Source of the DNA: a virus
DNA: 22,849 nt
Direction: 5' to 3' (one strand)
IMG/VR virus record: IMGVR_UViG_3300032342_000072
Coordinates: 1 to 22,849 of that record
Shown here: in pieces, positions 1 to 17,004 of the stretch
Numbering within the stretch: position 1 is the first letter of the stretch
Layout of the letters: each line of letters starts with the position of its first letter
Program-made: the position numbers and the translations under genes
Notes under the pieces: generated by a model
What the model was told of the DNA's origin: nothing
The model's database searches: none
The model's input: the letters and a program-made list of their open reading frames with translations, nothing else

Positions 1-226
1 CTCCATACACCCACGTATTTCCATACACCCGCGCATCTCCAGACACCCGCGCATTTCCATACACCCGCGCATTTCCAGACACCCGCGCATTTCCAGACAC
101 CCGCGCATTTCCATACACCCGCGCATTTCCATACACCCGCGCATCTCCATACACCCGCGCATCTCCATACACCCACGCATCTCCATACACCCGCGCATCT
201 CCATACACCCACGCATTTCCAGACAC
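1..226. repeat. 18-bp tandem repeat array (12 full copies plus a partial)
   Basis: Twelve complete head-to-tail copies of an 18-bp unit (consensus YTCCAKACACCCRCGCAT) fill positions 1-216, and a thirteenth partial copy ends at 226. The array runs off the left edge, so the true copy number is unknown. Copies differ almost only at three positions (C/T at the first base, T/G at base 6, G/A at base 13). The unit is a multiple of three and codes on the minus strand for six-residue repeats of the type G-D/N-A-R/W-V-Y/S. It is therefore coding DNA rather than an origin iteron or a CRISPR array, since there are no spacers. Confidence 0.95.
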
Positions 227-397
227 ATCAAGGTTTTTTTCTGCTTCGATGTAACCGCCTAATTCTCCCTTCACGACAAAAGAAAAAGTTTTTTTGGCTT
301 TTATCTGAAAAAGTTTTTTTCCGGTAATAGATACCTCGTCGCTCGGTATGAGTTCGTATTTATCATTCATAAAATTATTCACGTTGGGTCTTTCCAT
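1..397 (-). CDS. Hexapeptide-repeat (beta-helix type) phage protein, C-terminus beyond window
   Basis: The reading frame opens at an ATG at 397 and runs off the left edge; 132 codons are visible. After a start of MERPNVNNFM comes the segment NDKYELIPSDEVSITGKKLF, then KAKKTFSFVVKGELGGYIEA, then the repeats, such as GNAWVYGDARVYGDAWVYG. Short N-terminal domains of this kind (KYEL...GK.L..I.A...F..V..G.LGGYIE) followed by N/D-A-x-V-x-G hexads are familiar from phage and prophage proteins, and the hexads are expected to form a left-handed beta-helix. Function is unknown; a surface or virion-attached role is only a guess. The ATG at 397 is preferred over the internal ATG at 370 because GAGGGCGG lies just upstream of 397 and nothing similar precedes 370. 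The gene follows the lysis genes and a terminator, so it probably has its own transcript. Its unique N-terminal part is AT-richer than the tail genes. Confidence 0.85.
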   Translation of the reverse strand, partial: MERPNVNNFMNDKYELIPSDEVSITGKKLFQIKAKKTFSFVVKGELGGYIEAEKNLDVSGNAWVYGDARVYGDAWVYGDARVYGDARVYGNARVYGNARVSGNARVSGNARVYGNARVSGDARVYGNTWVYG

Positions 398-403
398 ATT
401 TTT

Positions 404-417
404 CCGCCCTCTCGGGC
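404..417 (-). promoter_or_regulatory. Ribosome-binding site inside a GNRA-capped hairpin
   Basis: Read on the minus strand, GCCC-GAGA-GGGC forms a four-base-pair stem with a GNRA-type tetraloop. Its 3' arm is part of the only Shine-Dalgarno-like element (GAGGGCGG) of the hexapeptide-repeat gene starting at 397. Pairing would mask the site, so translation may be tuned by structure. The stem is short and could simply be incidental. Confidence 0.4.
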
Positions 418-499
418 TTATTGAATAGTACGTCGCTGTTCCCTACTGTTCTAAATCCTATCACAAAATGAACTATCCGTCAAGGCCCGCCGGAAACGC

Positions 500-527
500 A
501 AAACGCCCCAGGATGCCCCTGGAGCGT
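500..527 (-). terminator. Terminator closing the tail-lysis operon
   Basis: On the minus strand ACGC-T-CCAGG, loop GGCAT, CCTGG-G-GCGT forms a nine-base-pair stem with one mismatch, followed by a short run TTTT. It lies about 85 bases beyond the stop of the holin-like gene and before the next gene starts at 397, which is where an operon end is expected. The stem is nearly symmetrical, so it might also act on the plus strand, but no plus-strand gene leads into it. The rest of the 398-610 gap holds only the RBS hairpin and a possible weak -10 (TACTAT near 430). Confidence 0.6.
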
Positions 528-610
528 CGTTTCTCCCCTTACCCTACCTTTTCCCCTTTCCGCCCCTAAAACCCCGCCTGCCTCCGTTTTGCGCGTCTAG
601 ACCCCCTTCC

Positions 611-982
611 TCACGTCCCCTCCGTCTTGACCCCCTTGGAAATCATCTGGGCCTCGATCAGATCCGGGTTCTTCCCCATCTGCTCGGCCTGCAACCGCAC
701 CAGCAGTTTCAACGTCGCGTCCACTCCGGCTATCGAGGCGTTGACCTTCTCCAACTCCGCCTTCAGGTGGGCGATGTCGTTGAATATCAGCTTGCAGAGG
801 AGTACCGCCACGACCGCCCATCCGCCGAGCTTTTCGATGAGCGCGGTGACGTCCAGCGGCGCGATCGGCAACGACGACGAATCCTGGGCGTAGCACTCGG
901 CCCCGATCATGAACAGCACCGTCGCGAGTATCAACCCATAAACCGTCCATTCGATTATTTTCTTCCTCAGTTCCTTTTTCAT
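611..982 (-). CDS. Holin-like small membrane protein
   Basis: The product has 123 residues: a basic N-terminus (MKKELRKK), a hydrophobic segment at about 12-29 (WTVYGLILATVLFMIG), a second at about 52-68 (GGWAVVAVLLCKLIF), then a charged, probably coiled-coil region at 70-100 and a hydrophilic tail. Two short membrane segments plus position directly after a peptidoglycan-peptidase gene fit a holin, which would permeabilise the inner membrane at lysis. The layout (hydrophobic segment then charged helix) recalls the BhlA/UviB group, but I cannot assign a family firmly. The start was chosen at 982 because this ATG shares an ATGA overlap with the stop of the upstream gene; longer upstream in-frame starts would lie inside the peptidase gene. 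A signal-anchor protein or a spanin component is an alternative. Confidence 0.65.
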   Translation of the reverse strand: MKKELRKKIIEWTVYGLILATVLFMIGAECYAQDSSSLPIAPLDVTALIEKLGGWAVVAVLLCKLIFNDIAHLKAELEKVNASIAGVDATLKLLVRLQAEQMGKNPDLIEAQMISKGVKTEGT

Positions 983-8870: not shown

Positions 8871-9185
8871 TCAGTCGAGTGACCGCCTGATGCGTATCTC
8901 CATGTGCCGGTCCTCGTTGCGGAACCTGTACCGCTCGACTCCGACCACCCGGTATCCGATCCCCTCCAGTATCACCCGGTCCTCCTCCTGGATATCCTTC
9001 GGGTCGCAGAACATCAGGTAGTCCTTGCCGAAGTTGCCGTTCATGTCCTGGCTGAACGAATCGTCAAGCGGCTGGACATGGCAGGGCACGGCCGCGATGT
9101 GCGACTGGTAACCCTCGGTATCCCCGCTCTCGTCCGAGAGCCGGAGCACCACCGCCGTCTTGTCGTAATGTTCGGCGATCGGCAT
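8871..9185 (-). CDS. Head closure / stopper protein
   Basis: The product has 104 residues and is mostly beta: MPIAEHYDKTAVVLRLSDES, then YQSHIAAVPCHVQPLDDSFS, DYLMFCDPKDIQEEDRVILE and GYRVVGVERYRF. Strand order, the DI.E.DRV....YRVV pattern and gene position after the connector fit head-closure proteins of the SPP1 gp16 / HK97 gp7 type. They form a ring below the connector and plug the portal channel after packaging. Members are short and diverge fast, so the call relies mainly on context and length. Confidence 0.72.
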   Translation of the reverse strand: MPIAEHYDKTAVVLRLSDESGDTEGYQSHIAAVPCHVQPLDDSFSQDMNGNFGKDYLMFCDPKDIQEEDRVILEGIGYRVVGVERYRFRNEDRHMEIRIRRSLD

Positions 9186-9194
9186 AAAATCAGA

Positions 9195-9785
9195 TCAGAA
9201 ATTGTACTTTTTCCGCGACTTCAGGATGTCCTCGACTTCGGCGAAATCGTCTATCTGGTCCTTGGTCTTGTACGTCACGGAGTAACGCCCGATGCTCTCC
9301 GATTGCACCTCTCCCTCGGATAACCAGGCGTTGTTGATTATCCCGGCCACCAGCACCGTCGCCGCGAACTTTATGTCGCCAGGCGCCGTCACCGAGTAAC
9401 CCCAAAAGCCGGTCACCGTCACGTTCTCCAGGTCGCGGAGGAATATCGCGTTTCTCAGTTGAATCAACGTCTTCGGAGTCGAGTTCGACGGCTTCAGGAC
9501 GTAATCCAGCGGGTCCACTTCTTCCAGTTCGGTGACCCCGATCTCCACCTTGTTCACTTCCAGGCAGTCGTCGATCACCAGTTTCGAGCAACCGCTACCG
9601 TCGAACTTGCGGGCCTCGCCGTCCCCGCTTTCGTCGATTTCCACGACGAAGTTCCGGCCGGTCTTGCGGTCTATATATTCCTCGACTTCACCGATCCACT
9701 CGTCCACCTGGTCGTAAAACGACGGGTCCACCGTGATGAGCAGATAGTTCTCGACGTCTTGTATCGTGCAATATCCCTTTGACAT
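9195..9785 (-). CDS. Head-tail connector (adaptor) protein, gp6-like
   Basis: The product has 196 residues. It opens YCTIQDVENYLLITVDPSFY followed by DEWIGEVEEYIDRKTGRNF, the helical pattern of HK97 gp6 / SPP1 gp15-type adaptors (a helix entering the crown, then EYID..TGR.F). The middle is beta (KLVIDDCLEVNKVEIG, YVLKPSNSTPKTLIQL), and another helix is rich in Ala (DIKFAATVLVAGIINNAW). Adaptors bind the lower face of the portal and provide the platform for the head-closure ring. In most siphophages this gene follows the capsid gene closely; here about 5 kb of fibre- and lectin-like genes separates them. Confidence 0.8.
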   Translation of the reverse strand: MSKGYCTIQDVENYLLITVDPSFYDQVDEWIGEVEEYIDRKTGRNFVVEIDESGDGEARKFDGSGCSKLVIDDCLEVNKVEIGVTELEEVDPLDYVLKPSNSTPKTLIQLRNAIFLRDLENVTVTGFWGYSVTAPGDIKFAATVLVAGIINNAWLSEGEVQSESIGRYSVTYKTKDQIDDFAEVEDILKSRKKYNF

Positions 9786-9803: not shown

Positions 9804-12665
9804 TTATGAACCGCGTACCAGCCGATTGTACGGCTTCCCCACCCTCTCGAACGGCGAATCCCGGTCCGCATAGGGCTTCGCCTTCCTGGAATAAGGCGGA
9901 TTCTTGTGTGAGTAGGGCTTATTTTTCGGCTTGTACGGGTAGATCCTGATGACGTATCGCAATCCCTTCTCCCGCCCGATGACGGTGTGGATAGAATATT
10001 TCAGCGGCTTCCCGATTACCGGCGACGACTCGACCTCGTAGGCCAGTCCCTTGCTCGAACCGTGGACCGTCACGATCTGATATCTCGCCGTTTTCTCCTT
10101 GCCCTTGACCGGCGATATCTCGTACCGCGATCCTTTGGATATCGCCGGTGTCCTCACGACATATTTGATTCCCTTCGCGTCCGATCCGACCGTCACGATC
10201 CGGTAGATTACGCCCTTTCCGATCCCCTCTCCTGTCAAAATCTCGTATCTCATTCCTTTGCCGATGCCCGGCGAAGGAATCACGTCGTATCTCATCCCCT
10301 TCTCCGAGGCGGGCGGGACCGTGACGATCGCGTACCTCTCCTGTTTTTCTTTCGCCTCCGGCGTCGTCGGGATGCAGTATTTCAACGCCTTGAAGACCGA
10401 TTCTCGCGCCCGCACTTCGTATCTCAGCGCCTTCCCCGCCGCCTCCGGAGTCAAGACGACATGGTAGGTCATCCCCTTCTCCGTGACGGCCGGTATCGTC
10501 AATATCTCGTAGGTCAGTCCTTTCCCGCCGGTCTTCGCCGTTCGGATGCGATAAGCCAATTCCTTGCCGTCAGGGTGTCCGGTCACGATCGCGTATCTCG
10601 ACGGTTTTTCGACGGCGTTCGGTATTGATTCGATCTCGTATTTCAATCCCTTGATCAATGCCTCTGCGGAAACGACGATATCGTACCGCAAGGCCTCTGG
10701 AATCAACCCGGCCGTCCTGATGGCATATACGGCCTCCTTACCGGAGGCCTCCGGAACCGTGACGATCCGGTATGCGGTCCCCTTCCCCATCGCGCCCGGC
10801 GTCATCACCTCATACCGCAATCCCTTGGCCTGGGCTTCGGGAACCGTCCTTATGGCGTAACCGACGCCCTTCAGTATTTCCCCTGCCGCGGCGACTACCT
10901 CGTAGGCGAGGCCTTTGCCGGTTAGCGCGGAAATCCTCACCCTGTAAGCCAGCGGTTCGCCCTGACCTCCGACCGTCCGCATCGCATATCGCGTCGCCAA
11001 TCCCATCGGCTCCGCCTCGGTTAGGATTTCGTACCGCAGGGCCTTGCCGTGAGGGGTCGCCGTCTTGATCCGATATTCCAGTCCTTTCCCGGCCGGTGAC
11101 GGAGTCGCCCTGACCGCGTAAGCCGAATCCTTGCCCGTTTCCGTCTTGGTCCTGATCGAGTACCTGAGTCCCTTCGCTTGCGCCTCCGGCACCGTCTTCA
11201 CGGCGTAACGGAGCGACTTCATCAGGGCGAACGGCTCGGTCCAGACGGCGTATCTCAGTCCCGCTTTCTTCGCGGCCGGCGTCGACTTCACCGTATATCT
11301 CAATTCTTCCTCGACGGCGATTCCGGCCTTCACCGCGTACCTGACCGGTTTCTCGGTCGCTCCCGGGACCGTCACCACCCGGTACTCCGTCGATTTTTCC
11401 AATGCGCCCGGCACGGTCTCGACCTCGTATTTCAGGCCCTTACCGGACGCCTCCGAAATCGTCCTCACCCGATACGTGATGCCTTTCCCCATGGCTTCCG
11501 GCTTTGCCGTGACCGCGTATCTGATTCCTTTTCCAAAGGTTCCCATCGCCTTGATCAGGTATCTTGATGCCTTTTCGACGGCGATCGGTATCGTCTTCAC
11601 CGCGTACCTCGTCCCCTTTTCAACCTTGATCGGAGTGACCGCCAGGATGTCATATTGTAATCCCTTCTCCTGCGGCTCCGGCGTCGAAACGACGGCGTAT
11701 TTCAAATCGGGTCCGACGCCGTAGAAGACCTTCACCGTGACATAATCCACGAAGACGGTCGTATAATTCTCCTGGCCTGTCGCCGTGCCGGAGCTGAATT
11801 GTAGGAGGAAATGAAGCCCGTCCCCGTTCTCGTTGAAATCATGGACGGTCGGAGTCGTCATTGACGGAAGCGTCGTCGGTCCGCCAAACGTCACCACCGA
11901 GTCGGAATCCTCGTTGAGTTGTTGCGCTCCGCCGATGTCTCCGAAATTGAAGCCGTCCACGTAAATGTTGCACTCCAGGAAACCTATCGGCCCGACGATT
12001 CCGGTCCTGACGTAGTGCCCCTTCGCCTTCACTTCCATTCCGACGATCTCGGCCCCGTCCGGTATCGAGAAGTCGAAGCCGTACAGTTTCATCGTCGCGT
12101 ATCCCGCGGGCAGGAGGTTGCCCGCGGCCACGGCATAATTTTCATCGTCAGAATATACGTTTTCGGGATTCTCCCAAAGGTAATTTGGCCCCCATCCATT
12201 GAAGTTGCCCGATGCGAGTTTCGCTCCTGTATCCTTCGGGACCGAGGCCCGCCCGACGGTGACTACCGAATATCCTAATCCCTTCTGAATCGCGGCCGGA
12301 ACTGACTTCACCGCGTAAGTCAGTCCTTTCTCCGCCTCCGTCGGAACCGTCTTCACCGCGTAGGCGAGCCCCTTCTCTTCCTTGACGGGATTGACCGACG
12401 GAGAGGCGATCTCGTAACTGAGGCCCTTCTCGCTAGCGGCCGGAACCGTCCTGACGCGGTATTCGAGCGCCTTCCCTTCCGCGGCGGGCGTGGACGGCAC
12501 GCAGTACTTCAGCCCCTTCAGCTTCGGCGCGCCCTGTCCTTGGACGACGTACCGCAGGGGCTTGGCCGCCTGCTCCGCCGTGTAGCCATCGAGCAGGATG
12601 AAACTGCCGTCCTCCTGCAGGATGGCCGAACTGTCCTCGGCCAATAGTTTATAGTTGGTGGGCAT
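9804..12665 (-). CDS. Giant repeat protein with about 48 copies of a ~15-residue K-G-L-x-Y unit
   Basis: The product has 953 residues. A short N-terminus (NYKLLAEDSSAILQEDG) leads into about seven repeats (35-140) of the form K-G-L-x-Y-x-V/I-x-T-V-P-x-A-x-G/E. A beta-sandwich-like insert occupies about 141-317 (NENVYSDDENYAVA-type segment, FDFSIPDGAEIVGMEVKAKG, YTTVFVDYVTVKVFY). About 41 further repeats run from 319 to 908. A C-terminal tail of six heptads starting P-Y/F closes the chain. Almost every repeat keeps K(G/A/P/S) near position 1 and Tyr at position 5, with alternating hydrophobics after it, suggesting a long strand-based fibre or solenoid. Copies differ at DNA level, so the expansion is not recent. 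No signal peptide, catalytic motif or membrane segment is seen. Likely an extended virion fibre or adhesin; function is unproven and I know no named family. Confidence 0.88.
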   Translation of the reverse strand: MPTNYKLLAEDSSAILQEDGSFILLDGYTAEQAAKPLRYVVQGQGAPKLKGLKYCVPSTPAAEGKALEYRVRTVPAASEKGLSYEIASPSVNPVKEEKGLAYAVKTVPTEAEKGLTYAVKSVPAAIQKGLGYSVVTVGRASVPKDTGAKLASGNFNGWGPNYLWENPENVYSDDENYAVAAGNLLPAGYATMKLYGFDFSIPDGAEIVGMEVKAKGHYVRTGIVGPIGFLECNIYVDGFNFGDIGGAQQLNEDSDSVVTFGGPTTLPSMTTPTVHDFNENGDGLHFLLQFSSGTATGQENYTTVFVDYVTVKVFYGVGPDLKYAVVSTPEPQEKGLQYDILAVTPIKVEKGTRYAVKTIPIAVEKASRYLIKAMGTFGKGIRYAVTAKPEAMGKGITYRVRTISEASGKGLKYEVETVPGALEKSTEYRVVTVPGATEKPVRYAVKAGIAVEEELRYTVKSTPAAKKAGLRYAVWTEPFALMKSLRYAVKTVPEAQAKGLRYSIRTKTETGKDSAYAVRATPSPAGKGLEYRIKTATPHGKALRYEILTEAEPMGLATRYAMRTVGGQGEPLAYRVRISALTGKGLAYEVVAAAGEILKGVGYAIRTVPEAQAKGLRYEVMTPGAMGKGTAYRIVTVPEASGKEAVYAIRTAGLIPEALRYDIVVSAEALIKGLKYEIESIPNAVEKPSRYAIVTGHPDGKELAYRIRTAKTGGKGLTYEILTIPAVTEKGMTYHVVLTPEAAGKALRYEVRARESVFKALKYCIPTTPEAKEKQERYAIVTVPPASEKGMRYDVIPSPGIGKGMRYEILTGEGIGKGVIYRIVTVGSDAKGIKYVVRTPAISKGSRYEISPVKGKEKTARYQIVTVHGSSKGLAYEVESSPVIGKPLKYSIHTVIGREKGLRYVIRIYPYKPKNKPYSHKNPPYSRKAKPYADRDSPFERVGKPYNRLVRGS
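9942..11711 (-). repeat. Coding repeat block, ~41 units of 13-16 codons
   Basis: This is the main repeat block of the 953-residue protein. Unit starts recur every 39-48 bases, most often 42 or 45. Typical units are KGLRYEVMTPGAMG, KALRYEILTEAEPMG and KGLTYEILTIPAVTE. Tyr at the fifth position is present in essentially every unit. A smaller block of about seven units lies at 12246-12563, separated by a non-repeat domain. Confidence 0.88.
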
Positions 12666-12688: not shown

Positions 12689-13318
12689 TCAAAAACATCC
12701 GAGTCCCATCGCATAGATTCTCCGAATCTTGGCTTGAGTCCATGCGTCGTTCGCGAAAATCACCTCGTCAAGTCCGCCGCCATATCGGTCGGTCGATGCC
12801 GTGGATGGGCCACGCCCGAGATTGAAATTGCCAGTCGTCGGAAACGAACTGGCGGATGTCGCCTTCGCGTTGCCGACTTGTTTGCCGTTGATGTAGGTGT
12901 AGAGATAACCGTTGTTCCTGACAACTGCGTAGTGATATCTCTTGTTCGCGGAGAGTTGAATCACGGTGGTATCAGCCCCTTCGGTAAACCATGCCCCGAA
13001 ACTCCACCGAATCCACCATGACTGGGTGGCGATGGACATGGCATGACTTCCCGAAGTCCCGTAATTGTTGAAATTCATAAACCAATTCCAATTACTGTTT
13101 TCGGACGGCGTATTCAGCCAGAAACAGATGGTGAAATTGTTGTTGAGATTCAACGGGACGGCTATAACGACGTTGGAAGCCGCCGACGTGACCATCTTCA
13201 CTCCTTTGCCCCTTCTGCCGTAGGGGGCGACGTAAGTGACGTTCGTATCAGTGCCGTTCCTGCCGCCAACGAGGTCGGAGGAGTTGCCTTCCATTCGATA
13301 GTAGGAAGAAAGTGACAT
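12689..13318 (-). CDS. LamG / concanavalin A-like lectin domain protein
   Basis: The product has 209 residues and consists almost wholly of one LamG-like jelly-roll domain: SSYYRMEGNSSDLVGGRNGT at the start, then FTICFWLNTPSENSNW, LSANKRYHYAVVRNNGYLYT, YINGKQVGNAKATSASSFPT, FNLGRGPSTASTDRYGGGLD and EVIFANDAWTQAKIRRIYA. These are the standard landmarks of the laminin-G-3 fold (Y.meGn..D..G.n.....v.y, fti.fWl, yvNG, G.lDev.i...alt..eI..iy). Such domains bind glycans. It starts three bases after the upstream stop, inside the accessory cassette, so it is probably a small adhesin assembled with, or decorating, the adjacent fibre-like proteins. Confidence 0.85.
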   Translation of the reverse strand: MSLSSYYRMEGNSSDLVGGRNGTDTNVTYVAPYGRRGKGVKMVTSAASNVVIAVPLNLNNNFTICFWLNTPSENSNWNWFMNFNNYGTSGSHAMSIATQSWWIRWSFGAWFTEGADTTVIQLSANKRYHYAVVRNNGYLYTYINGKQVGNAKATSASSFPTTGNFNLGRGPSTASTDRYGGGLDEVIFANDAWTQAKIRRIYAMGLGCF

Positions 13319-13321
13319 AAA

Positions 13322-14257
13322 TCAAACGGCGTCCCAAAGGTCGTCGTATGAATAAAAGGCGACGACATAGGCGTCTTGAGGCTTGGTCGTCGCGCCAGCC
13401 GCCGTAGGGGTGCGGAGGGTGACGAGCGAACCGCCGACAATGACTTGCGAGGCGGTGGGAGAGATGTTCAACGCGGAAGCGTTGGTAGTCAAGTCGGTGT
13501 CCGAGGTCGTCAAGCCCGTACCATCATCGTAGATGTCTACCGTAAAGGCCGCGCCCGAACCAGCGGCGGCAGTCCCGAGATAGACCGAATAACACAGGAT
13601 GCGCCAATCGTGGTTGGTCGGATTGACGTACATCTTGCCTACGGGATTGGTAGCGTCGGCGACCTGTTCGCCTGGGACGTACCAATCGAGCATCCTGACA
13701 ATTTCCGTCAACGACAGCCTGAAATTCGTGTCGTCCGACGCGAAGGCGACTCCTGACAGGTTCATGGTGACGGTCGTAGACGAAGCCGTGGCATATCGGA
13801 CGAAACCCTGTTTGACCGTAGAACCGTTGGCGGAAGTCCAACGACAGAGTTTCCCGATGATGGAGTTCGCCATCAACGTCGCGGCGGCTTCACTGGCGGC
13901 GGTGAAAGTGATTACAGTGGCCGAGGAATAGGCGACCGTAATGACATCCGACCAGACCTTCATCGACTTGGCCGAATAACCCTTATAGTCACCGCCTTCG
14001 GCGGCGGCGGACATGGCCGAAGCCCCGTTCCCCTTGACGACGCCAGTGATGGTCTGAACTCCCGTACCTCCGAGACTTACCGAAAGGGTGGTAATGGCGG
14101 CCTGGTAGATGCCGTCGAAATACGACTTGAGCGCGGCCTTCACGTTCGCCCAGGTTATTTTCTTCGTGATGCCCGTCGTCACGTCCACGACCGGCACGAC
14201 GTCCGTGTCGACTGGCGGCGTGTACGACGTGAACTGGCTGATTTTCTTGTCCGACAT
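13322..14257 (-). CDS. Putative tail/head fibre protein
   Basis: The product has 311 residues. The N-terminus (MSDKKISQFTSYTPPVDTDV, VPVVDVTTGITKKITWANVK, AALKSYFDGIYQ) is a pattern that recurs at the start of phage fibre and spike proteins. LGGTGVQTITGVVKGNG follows, a typical fibre-shaft motif. The rest is beta-rich, Thr/Ala/Ser-rich and ends in a compact region with FTVDIYDDGTGLTT. Low charge and no cysteines except two fit an extracellular structural protein. It is the first of three consecutive adhesin-like genes. Assignment to tail rather than head fibre cannot be made; the position between capsid and connector genes makes a capsid-attached fibre possible. Confidence 0.7.
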   Translation of the reverse strand: MSDKKISQFTSYTPPVDTDVVPVVDVTTGITKKITWANVKAALKSYFDGIYQAAITTLSVSLGGTGVQTITGVVKGNGASAMSAAAEGGDYKGYSAKSMKVWSDVITVAYSSATVITFTAASEAAATLMANSIIGKLCRWTSANGSTVKQGFVRYATASSTTVTMNLSGVAFASDDTNFRLSLTEIVRMLDWYVPGEQVADATNPVGKMYVNPTNHDWRILCYSVYLGTAAAGSGAAFTVDIYDDGTGLTTSDTDLTTNASALNISPTASQVIVGGSLVTLRTPTAAGATTKPQDAYVVAFYSYDDLWDAV

Positions 14258-14275: not shown

Positions 14276-14680
14276 TTAGAACTCGAAATTGAGCCTGCCT
14301 TCGGACTGTACTACCGTGTCGTCGGGCAGGATGCAGTTATATACCTCGGTCTTCGTCCTTTGATTCTGAAATCCGAAGACGCATATCTTGATCTTCCGCT
14401 CGTCCTTCGTCCGGTATCTCAGTACGGCCTTCTGATAAAACATGAAGATCTTATGGTCGGCATTGAGCGCCAGTTCGATCTTCTTCGCCGGTTCGTCGAA
14501 CTTGCTCACCCGGAATATCTTGATGTCTCCCTTGTCGATGGCCTCCTGTATCCGGTGGAACTTCCCGTCCTCTCCGAATTGCCTCAGCTCCGATCCGTCG
14601 CCGAATATCGCGGTCCAGACCCACCGCTCCGGCACCGCCTCGATCTCCTTCCCGTCCTTGTCGACGTAGATATATTTCAT
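14276..14680 (-). CDS. Conserved-looking small phage protein, unknown function
   Basis: The product has 134 residues: KYIYVDKDGKEIEAVPERWV, then WTAIFGDGSELRQFGEDGKF, HRIQEAIDKGDIKIFRVSKF, and a beta-rich second half with FMFYQKAVLRYRTKDERKIK. The W.A.F.DGS.L.QF...G.FH...EI...... pattern resembles small uncharacterised proteins that I associate with phage genomes, but no function is known to me. It is soluble, with no membrane or metal-binding motif. It is the first gene after an intrinsic terminator. The start at 14680 is chosen because the frame upstream codes through the terminator hairpin; an in-frame ATG at 14734 would add 18 residues (MPKSSILARGSFFIQFTT). The bases TCACGACC before its ATGA are identical to those before the terminase small subunit start. 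Confidence 0.65.
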   Translation of the reverse strand: MKYIYVDKDGKEIEAVPERWVWTAIFGDGSELRQFGEDGKFHRIQEAIDKGDIKIFRVSKFDEPAKKIELALNADHKIFMFYQKAVLRYRTKDERKIKICVFGFQNQRTKTEVYNCILPDDTVVQSEGRLNFEF

Positions 14681-14989: not shown

Positions 14990-15511
14990 TCAGGCGGTCT
15001 CGTCGTACTGGAACGAGAGCGTGGTCGCGTTGCCGGCGACCGCCGAAACGGTCGTCTGAATCTGCATGACCAGGTAATCGCTGTACCCGGCGTCGTCCAG
15101 TCCTCCGGCCAATGCGCCTCCGATCCCCAAGTTCGCGCTCGCCGGTTCGCTGGTCGGCATGGCCTGCGAATACTTGTAGGTCGCGCTCCGGTCCGTGTCC
15201 AGCGGCCCGTTGACCGTGTCGTACGCCTGCGCACCCTCGTATCCCGCGGTCCGGGCGTTCGTCTTGAGCGCGGCTTCGGCGGCCAACGCCTCGCCCCAGA
15301 CCTTCAGGTTGTCGATCAGGCTCGACGTCCCGATGTCCGTGACGTGGAACCTCACCCACTTCTCGAACGAGTTATCGCCGGGCACGATCGGGTTCGCCAC
15401 CGGGTCCAGTTCAGTCTCCTCCGATGAACCCATGTTCAGGTTCGCGACGTCATGGCTGACGTCCTCGCCCGCGCCGTTCGACTCGCATATCTCCACTGTA
15501 GCTGCCGCCAT
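14990..15511 (-). CDS. Unknown, probable virion protein (capsid decoration candidate)
   Basis: The product has 173 residues and is acidic: MAAATVEICESNGAGEDVSH, then SFEKWVRFHVTDIGTSSLID, NLKVWG and later YSDYLVMQIQTTVSAVAGNA with a final LSFQYDETA. The central WVRFHVTD....SLIDNLKVWG pattern suggests a beta-sandwich of the kind found in phage structural proteins. Position just after the major capsid gene is where decoration or cement proteins often lie. There is no signal, membrane segment or enzyme motif. Its ATG shares a base with the TAA of the upstream 41-residue gene (TAATG), so the two are coupled. Function is an inference from place and composition. Confidence 0.6.
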   Translation of the reverse strand: MAAATVEICESNGAGEDVSHDVANLNMGSSEETELDPVANPIVPGDNSFEKWVRFHVTDIGTSSLIDNLKVWGEALAAEAALKTNARTAGYEGAQAYDTVNGPLDTDRSATYKYSQAMPTSEPASANLGIGGALAGGLDDAGYSDYLVMQIQTTVSAVAGNATTLSFQYDETA

Positions 15512-15696: not shown

Positions 15697-17004
15697 CTAT
15701 TTCGATTCGCTCTCGGCCACGGCCTTCAGGACGGTGAGTCCCTTCGGCAGGGCGCAGGTGTAGCCGACCCGTTCCACGACGCGCAGGGCCACCAGGTCCT
15801 GTTCGGCGAGGTTGACGATCGTGTCGTCGTCGGTGTCGGTGATCGTCGCCTGGTCGAGCAACTTCACGCGGAGCTGTTGCTTGTCGCCGAAGATGCAGGT
15901 CGTCTTCAGGTTGCCGAACAGGATGAACGCGTCACCCTCTTCGACGTCGGCGACCGCCGGGAAGGCGTCGCTCAGCGTATAAGGCCGGTCCCAGACGGTG
16001 CCCGGGAGGCCGTTAGCCGGAGCCTGGAAGATGTATTGGCCCTGCTTGTCCTTCAGCTTGCGGATGACCGAGAGCCAGGTCCGGTGCATGTAGTAACGCG
16101 CACCGTCCATCGCGCCGGTCGGAGTGGCGTCCTGCAGGTTGAGCAGGTCGTCGGCCGAAATGACCGAATCCTCCGCGTCCACCGTGTTCACGTCGCCGTT
16201 GTTCAGGAGGCCGGTCCACGGTGCGCCCGTGCCCGCGAAGAACTGCAAGTCCTCTTCCTTGGCAGTCGCCTCGGCGAACAGCGCGCCCAGGAGGGCGTTC
16301 AGGTCGATGGCCGAGTCCTCGATTATCTCCTCGGTCATCGGCACGATGGCCGCGAGCTTCTTCAAGGTCTGCGTCACGATGCTGAACTTCGGCTGTGTCG
16401 ATTTCTTCTTGCCGCCTTCCTCGGTCCAGAACACGTTGACGCTGGTGCCGAGGGCCGGAATCGCGCGGGAATTGCCCGGACCGGAGAACGGCAGGTACAT
16501 CATGTCCCTGCGGGCGATGCCGTACTGCGTTTCCTTGATCCTCAGGACTTCGGCCAGCAGTTCCGGAGGAACCGTCAGACCGGCCTGGGCGTCATCCGGG
16601 TCGGAACCGGACGTAGACGTGGTGAGCGCCTTGGCGCCCATCTTGTCGCCGTTCAGCAACGCCTTCATGAACTTGCGGGTCCGATCCTGGACCTTCTGGT
16701 CCACCGGCTCGGCCTTGGCCTCGAGGGCCTTGGCCCTCATCTTCTCGGCGCCAGCCATGAACTTGGCGACGATGGATTCGGCGATCTCGTCGATCTTCTT
16801 CTCGTCCGTGGCGTCATTGACTTCCTTGCGGACGAGCGCCTTGACCGCCTCGACGTCGAGTCCCTCCTCTTCGCCTTTGAGGACGTCCGCGTACTTCGTC
16901 ACCTGTTCCTCGCTGAGGGAGGCGGCGTTCTCGCGGATGAACTCCTTTTCCTCGTCATTCAGGGCCGTCGGGTCCTTGGCGAGGATTTTCTTGAGATTCA
17001 ACAT
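15697..17004 (-). CDS. Major capsid protein, HK97 fold, with N-terminal scaffold (delta) domain
   Basis: The product has 435 residues. Residues 1-125 are charged and helical (LNDEEKEFIRENAASLSEEQ, DEIAESIVAKFMAGAEKMRA), the look of a delta scaffolding domain removed by the prohead protease. The rest has HK97-family landmarks: GLTVPPELLAEVLRIKET, a P-domain region with ALGTSVNVFWTEEGGKKKST, LKKLAAIVPMTEEIIEDSAI, DLQFFAGTGAPWTGLL, ARYYMHRTWLSVIRKLKDKQ and the final VVERVGYTCALPKGLTVLK. It builds the icosahedral shell. It lies directly after the protease gene, with 11 bases between. The likely cleavage point is near KALTTSTSGSD (about 124-134), by position only. Confidence 0.95.
   Translation of the reverse strand: MLNLKKILAKDPTALNDEEKEFIRENAASLSEEQVTKYADVLKGEEEGLDVEAVKALVRKEVNDATDEKKIDEIAESIVAKFMAGAEKMRAKALEAKAEPVDQKVQDRTRKFMKALLNGDKMGAKALTTSTSGSDPDDAQAGLTVPPELLAEVLRIKETQYGIARRDMMYLPFSGPGNSRAIPALGTSVNVFWTEEGGKKKSTQPKFSIVTQTLKKLAAIVPMTEEIIEDSAIDLNALLGALFAEATAKEEDLQFFAGTGAPWTGLLNNGDVNTVDAEDSVISADDLLNLQDATPTGAMDGARYYMHRTWLSVIRKLKDKQGQYIFQAPANGLPGTVWDRPYTLSDAFPAVADVEEGDAFILFGNLKTTCIFGDKQQLRVKLLDQATITDTDDDTIVNLAEQDLVALRVVERVGYTCALPKGLTVLKAVAESESK

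Follow-up and report, generated by a model that had tools for sequence, protein, structure and literature searches.

A tyrosine-anchored repeat protein, putatively a neck-docked fibre shaft, in a probable Patescibacteria phage

The repeat gene and its neighbours

The window, i.e. the whole 22,849-nucleotide stretch of viral DNA analysed here (IMG/VR record IMGVR_UViG_3300032342_000072), carries on its minus strand genes in the order terminase, portal, protease, major capsid protein (MCP), p173, p131, a 311-aa KISQ protein and a LamG protein, followed by the repeat protein, a gp6-like adaptor, head closure, tail tube, tape measure, Dit and Tal; some of these names have sequence and gene order as their sole basis. 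The features around the repeat gene are listed in Table 1.

Table 1. Features of the repeat gene and of the adjoining head and neck genes (G001, closest viral relative with this region covered)
Feature	Position	Strand	Remarks
Head closure / stopper-like protein	8871..9185	-	
Head-tail adaptor (gp6-like)	9195..9785	-	PHROG 442, E 4e-16; starts 19 nt downstream of the repeat gene
953-aa repeat protein, putative fibre shaft with insert and end motifs	9804..12665	-	
C-terminal YPYKPKNKPYSHKNPPYSRKAKPY... tail	9807..9941	-	tail type of 31/34 adaptor (gp6)-linked relatives
Repeat block 2, 41 units	9936..11711	-	
Insert, beta-sandwich-like	11712..12251	-	homologous to the N-terminus of the G001 orthologue (E 1.6e-10)
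Repeat block 1, 7 units	12240..12563	-	
N-terminal tag MPTNYKLLAEDSSAILQEDGSFILLDG...	12564..12665	-	common to relatives of both tail types
LamG/concanavalin-like protein	12689..13318	-	PF13385, E 5e-16; directly upstream of the repeat gene
KISQFTSYTPPVDTDVVPVVD cassette protein (KISQ)	13322..14257	-	no family match; homologues in the same place, 15 matches
p131 homologue (MKYIYVDKDGKEIEAVPERWVW...), conserved cassette gene	14276..14680	-	an internal ATG was chosen as the start
p173	14990..15511	-	~50-60% identical across relatives; predicted beta-sandwich, pLDDT 92.7
HK97-type major capsid protein	15697..17004	-	PF05065, E 2e-43

The repeat protein is encoded by the ORF 12665..9804; the span reported for it in the earlier note was correct, and the coding strand is the minus one. 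Using Y-x-[V/I/M] as the anchor, 48 units with the core K-G-L-x-Y-x-V/I-x-T-x-P were counted, block 1 (Tyr 39..132) contributing seven and block 2 (Tyr 323..904) the remaining 41, which reproduces the previously given number of copies and their division into two blocks. Within the blocks the Tyr-Tyr steps are 13-16 residues long, with one of 18, and are almost always 14 or 15; therefore, every unit has its Tyr. This residue, described earlier as almost invariant, is present in 48/48 units, as is V/I/M at position +3, and Lys is found in 42/48. A partner at +14/15 exists for 43 Y-x-[VIM] sites, compared with a mean of 0.2 and a maximum of 3 in 2,000 shuffled sequences. The DNA copies of the units have diverged: over a 33-base core their mean nucleotide identity is 51%, nearest neighbours show no excess, and a DNA tandem-repeat finder reported no repeat over the ORF. 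Since the shuffles fall far below 43 and the identity of the DNA cores averages just 51%, the pattern is probably old and kept by selection acting on the protein, in agreement with the earlier proposal.

At most loci found in relatives, p173 and p131 accompany the repeat gene, and in 34/39 cases with a gp6 homologue in view the repeat gene is located directly upstream of the gp6 adaptor gene. A second group has p173, p131, KISQ and the repeat gene, followed by nozzle-like and other adaptor-like genes. At one locus (L096), the gene after the repeat encodes an SU10-type adaptor (PF24175, E 2e-12). A few members are placed differently, among them L079, where the repeat lies beside a tail-hub-like domain, as well as L076 and L080, where it is upstream of protease/MCP. 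The cassette is thus carried both by phages with a siphovirus tail (Dit/Tal) and by phages with a podovirus-like neck; what these have in common is the head and neck.

The repeat family in phages and Patescibacteria

Relatives of the window virus were found by a search with the capsid protein; the closest with this region covered (G001) has an MCP 66% identical and encodes a syntenic orthologue of the repeat protein, which is 557 aa long, contains 24 units and ends in the same tail. The wider family was collected by scanning IMG/VR contigs with a two-unit DNA pattern, first checked on known loci; a wide family alignment was too variable to yield a search pattern. Seventy-five viral contigs were matched, with arrays encoded in 70/75; a pattern with a frame slip, run on genome contigs, gave 40 chance matches, almost all of them single, which makes a useful control. 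The family comprises 66 distinct proteins with 5-73 units each, 1,756 units in all, spaced by 14 (1,009 steps) or 15 residues (624), together 1,633 of roughly 1,700 steps. Its consensus is A-I-T-K-S-L-x-Y-x-V/I-x-T; the scan pattern demands K, L, Y and V/I, so the conservation of these residues across the family is partly built in, while the window counts are unaffected. Positions -5, -1, +1 and +3 are hydrophobic in 79-100% of units and positions -4, 0 and +2 are mostly polar; on sequence grounds, one unit would be an 11-residue amphipathic strand plus a turn of 3-4 residues. Arrays can change in length during evolution: between phages whose adaptors are 100% identical, the number of units is 28 versus 32 in one case, and 25 versus at least 39 in another. 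In one array of 73 units (L029:3068-6274), a higher-order periodicity spanning several units (LKYCVITTP / LKYDIFLGS / GLIYDV triads) is a sign of block duplication.

Besides the repeats, the window protein has a YKLLAEDSSAILQEDGSFILLDG tag at its N-terminus and a heptad-like PY tail at its C-terminus. The N-termini of the family vary. Some members have a short LLxETGDxILLD tag, while in others there are different domains, including LamG, kelch and weak CBM96, which are adhesin-like; the variable N-terminal and inserted domains are lectin- or enzyme-like in character, and one viral relative carries a C-terminal amidase (Amidase_2). The insert noticed earlier between the two blocks is a separate domain common to other phages, being also homologous to the N-terminus of an L076 protein; no Pfam or PDB match was found for it, nor any match when it was searched alone against viral contigs. 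The PY tail occurs in 31/34 gp6-linked but in 0/12 nozzle/SU10-linked proteins (Fisher p 1e-8, relatedness not corrected), and this correlation with the neck type may reflect shared ancestry. Because the C-terminus is kept within each neck type, we infer that it docks at the neck, with the N-terminal or inserted domain directed towards the cell. This orientation would be the opposite of that of phage fibres, which are usually attached by the N-terminus.

A one-chain fusion colinear with the sandwich-repeat gene and adaptor gene of the window is found in the podovirus MW202473.1, whose protein annotated as 'tail tubular protein A' (32.1-34.4 kb; L148:3848-6109) is composed of an N-terminal sandwich, a beta-repeat stalk and an adaptor-type tail tubular domain. 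The stalk, however, has a period of 21-22 aa, differing from the 14-15 of the window, and its sandwich is only weakly similar to the N-terminal domain of the G001 orthologue (E 2e-3).

The earlier note could not match the repeat to a named family, and the searches performed here explain nothing of it either: for the window protein no credible match came from Pfam, PHROGs or NCBIfam, the PDB sequence searches, made with the protein itself and with profiles built from 15, 26 and 109 rows, gave chance matches only, and among 50,697 GenBank phages there was no match to the window protein or to two relatives. Pfam matches of relatives to PulA_N1, Laminin_IV_B and TIP49_C were rejected because the family differs from member to member and only sub-threshold stretches are summed; a weak Ufm1 match in the window protein is likewise a repeat-inflated sum in which no single stretch passes. 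The YTV family (PF07639) shares with the window units a K-x-V-x-Y-x-V core and a period of ~15 residues. YTV proteins are planctomycete Cys-rich cell-wall proteins with Cys after Val (PMC8567305), whereas in the window units and in the family Cys is not among the commonest residues at +4. The Pfam profile does not match the window protein, and in the one relative that exceeds the cut-off (24.4 versus 21 bits) it is the sum that does so, as no stretch passes by itself. Kinship with YTV was also unsupported by hhalign (probability 12%, and 0.4% with the window units alone), and the YTV unit score lies inside the range of shuffled controls.

Chromosomes of Patescibacteria (CPR) yielded three family proteins, of which two are encoded by integrated prophages. 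A p173 profile found five genomes of one class, which falls in the same phylum as a Candidatus Parcubacteria genome (Patescibacteria), and none among 150 and 148 genomes of two other phyla; a repeat profile found three (G049, G210 and G660) among 309 genomes of that class and none among 118 genomes of another phylum. The single-contig genomes G049 and G210 contain integrated, apparently complete podovirus-like prophages (G049:C1 about 471-502 kb, G210:C1 about 315-345 kb) with p173, p131 and a repeat protein (8 units, 862-866 aa) that in G049 has an amidase domain. Both prophages carry a C39-like gene akin to the window ORF 979-1440, and that of G049 has a tyrosine-recombinase-like gene at one end. 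Judging from the genes shared with these prophages, the window virus is probably a phage of Patescibacteria.

In the third genome, G660, p173, p131 and an 8-unit repeat protein (C14, about 40.0-42.7 kb; L158:12997-15682) are located amid ordinary chromosomal genes, with no visible phage genes. Two further genomes have p173-p131 adjoining glycosyltransferase-like genes, again with no visible phage genes (G469:C4 about 22.2-23.4 kb, L159, preceded by surface-like proteins; G476:C45 about 7.6-8.7 kb, L160). The idea that p173 and p131 are virion-only markers was dropped because of these chromosomal loci. No signal peptide was seen by eye in p173.

Possible fold and role of the array

The reading preferred here, to which we give an even chance, is that the protein is the long, thin shaft of a virion fibre-adhesin of Patescibacteria phages, built of strand units that pack between chains and docked at the neck. 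Each 14-15-residue unit would contribute a single amphipathic beta-strand (I-x-K-x-L-x-Y-x-V-x-T) plus a turn of 3-4 residues, and the units would pack only between chains, most likely in a trimer similar to the triple beta-spiral, so that gain or loss of units would make the fibre longer or shorter. The variable N-terminal or inserted domain (a sandwich here, and LamG, kelch or CBM-like domains elsewhere) would touch the cell, while the head-tail adaptor or neck would be the docking site of the conserved C-terminal tail. Virion location, trimeric state, orientation and adhesion are all what we infer; gene order by itself is insufficient as proof of virion location, and the fibre module is not strictly a virion part, since G660 holds p173, p131 and the repeat gene without phage neighbours.

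Among the closest likenesses is the triple beta-spiral of the adenovirus shaft, a fold of alternating hydrophobic positions plus a turn, with a pseudo-repeat of ~15 residues. The window units have the corresponding 14/15 spacing and alternation and apparently one strand per unit; they differ in having near-invariant Lys and Tyr and no sequence match to any solved chain. The C-terminus, a PY tail of ~20-50 residues with no family match, has no globular head or foldon, and no knob or trimerisation domain was recognised there. The adenovirus shaft has 22 repeats, whose number sets its length (PMC7248032, PMC2845623), and a near full-length construct forms rods of ~20 nm (PMC8869412). By this analogy, the 41 units of block 2 would span roughly 40-50 nm.

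Neck-held fibres have precedents: six long tail fibres are attached to the adaptor of SU10 (PMC9509320), and the neck of A-1(L) bears neck fibres of ~100 nm (PMC10966104). The likeness lies in the place of attachment, and in L096 the repeat gene adjoins an SU10-type adaptor gene; however, the SU10 and A-1(L) fibres are other proteins, attached by the N-terminus, whereas C-terminal attachment is suspected for the window protein. The head fibres of RcGTA bind the host capsule, and their protein Rcc01080 is flexible and docks by an apolar N-terminal peptide on a beta-jellyroll base (PMC7296036). By description, the peptide and its base recall the LL tag and p173, itself a small beta protein; the tag is restricted to some family members.

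An alternative place for the shaft is the tail tip or baseplate, where receptor-binding proteins mostly sit; an ordinary tail fibre gene would then merely have been placed in the head cluster. Some support comes from L079, in which the units are followed along the chain by a stretch similar to the baseplate hub GPD (E 1e-4, below the cut-off), but this location is unlikely given that the cassette spans Dit/Tal and nozzle/SU10-adaptor phages, which have the head and neck in common, and that the adaptor gene is adjacent in 34/39 cases.

Modelling of the last 10 units plus tail by AlphaFold2 with a 109-row alignment gave a pLDDT of 55, a pTM of 0.28 and almost no strands, compared with a pLDDT of 92.7 for the control p173 (36-row alignment). 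An obligate oligomer and a flexible chain would each agree with such a failed single-chain fold, and the low pLDDT would fit disorder too. It is quite unlikely that the protein is a flexible, mostly unfolded multivalent chain whose units act singly as sticky strands binding surface ligands or partners: besides the lack of a stable model, the even spacing and near-invariant Lys and Tyr could make a linear-motif array, yet strand alternation and strict 14/15 spacing over hundreds of units would be unusual for disorder.

The earlier note had offered a strand-turn solenoid or a long fibre. The long fibre is plausible and is the best reading, whereas a monomeric beta-solenoid, which the regular repeat and beta-type alternation would suit, is unsupported and highly improbable: the structure prediction of consecutive units, proposed then as a check, left ten units unfolded with no single-chain coils despite a deep family alignment, the contrast with the well-folded p173 argues against it, and the near-invariant Lys would stand on the apolar face.

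The least probable reading is a donor-strand thread, in which each unit completes an incomplete beta-sandwich such as p173 to form a bead chain; p173 and p131 do accompany the repeat at most loci, including one chromosomal locus, isolated units are unfolded in AlphaFold2, and among PDB folds the p173 model best matches FimG, FimI and FimA of the type 1 pilus (E 0.05-0.1, probability up to 0.95, TM <0.5). These matches, however, are weak and only of a generic beta-sandwich, p173 is confidently predicted as a complete monomer, and no repeat gene is visible beside p173-p131 in G469 and G476. Very doubtful as a whole is a broader proposal, of which the donor strand is the extreme form, that combines a new inter-chain beta fold, C-terminal neck docking and an extendable fibre module common to Patescibacteria and their phages.

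A modular phage fibre, as preferred here, is of a known kind, and what is new is the repeat family together with its probable C-terminal docking at the neck. The family, with ~1,760 sampled units, is unnamed, and all members found in this analysis come from uncultivated phages or Patescibacteria. It offers a testable candidate for how viruses gain access to the surface of ultra-small epibiotic bacteria, a question nearly unexplored, and an array of modular length with a fold unpredicted by single-chain AlphaFold2 might be a source of new beta-fibre materials.

Two other elements were observed. In the window, an edge-cut minus-strand ORF (2-397) contains 18-bp tandem repeats and encodes a YdcK/bactofilin-like hexapeptide beta-solenoid (PF18836, E 5e-23). 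G001 has a diversity-generating retroelement (L020:19-2317 and L019:3457-3876) with a reverse transcriptase (RT; RVT_1, E 8e-18), whose frame is overlapped in its 5' part by the template, and a pair of candidate targets, of which one, of Lcl_C type, is near the MCP gene; in target 1, 15/17 template-to-target changes are at adenines.
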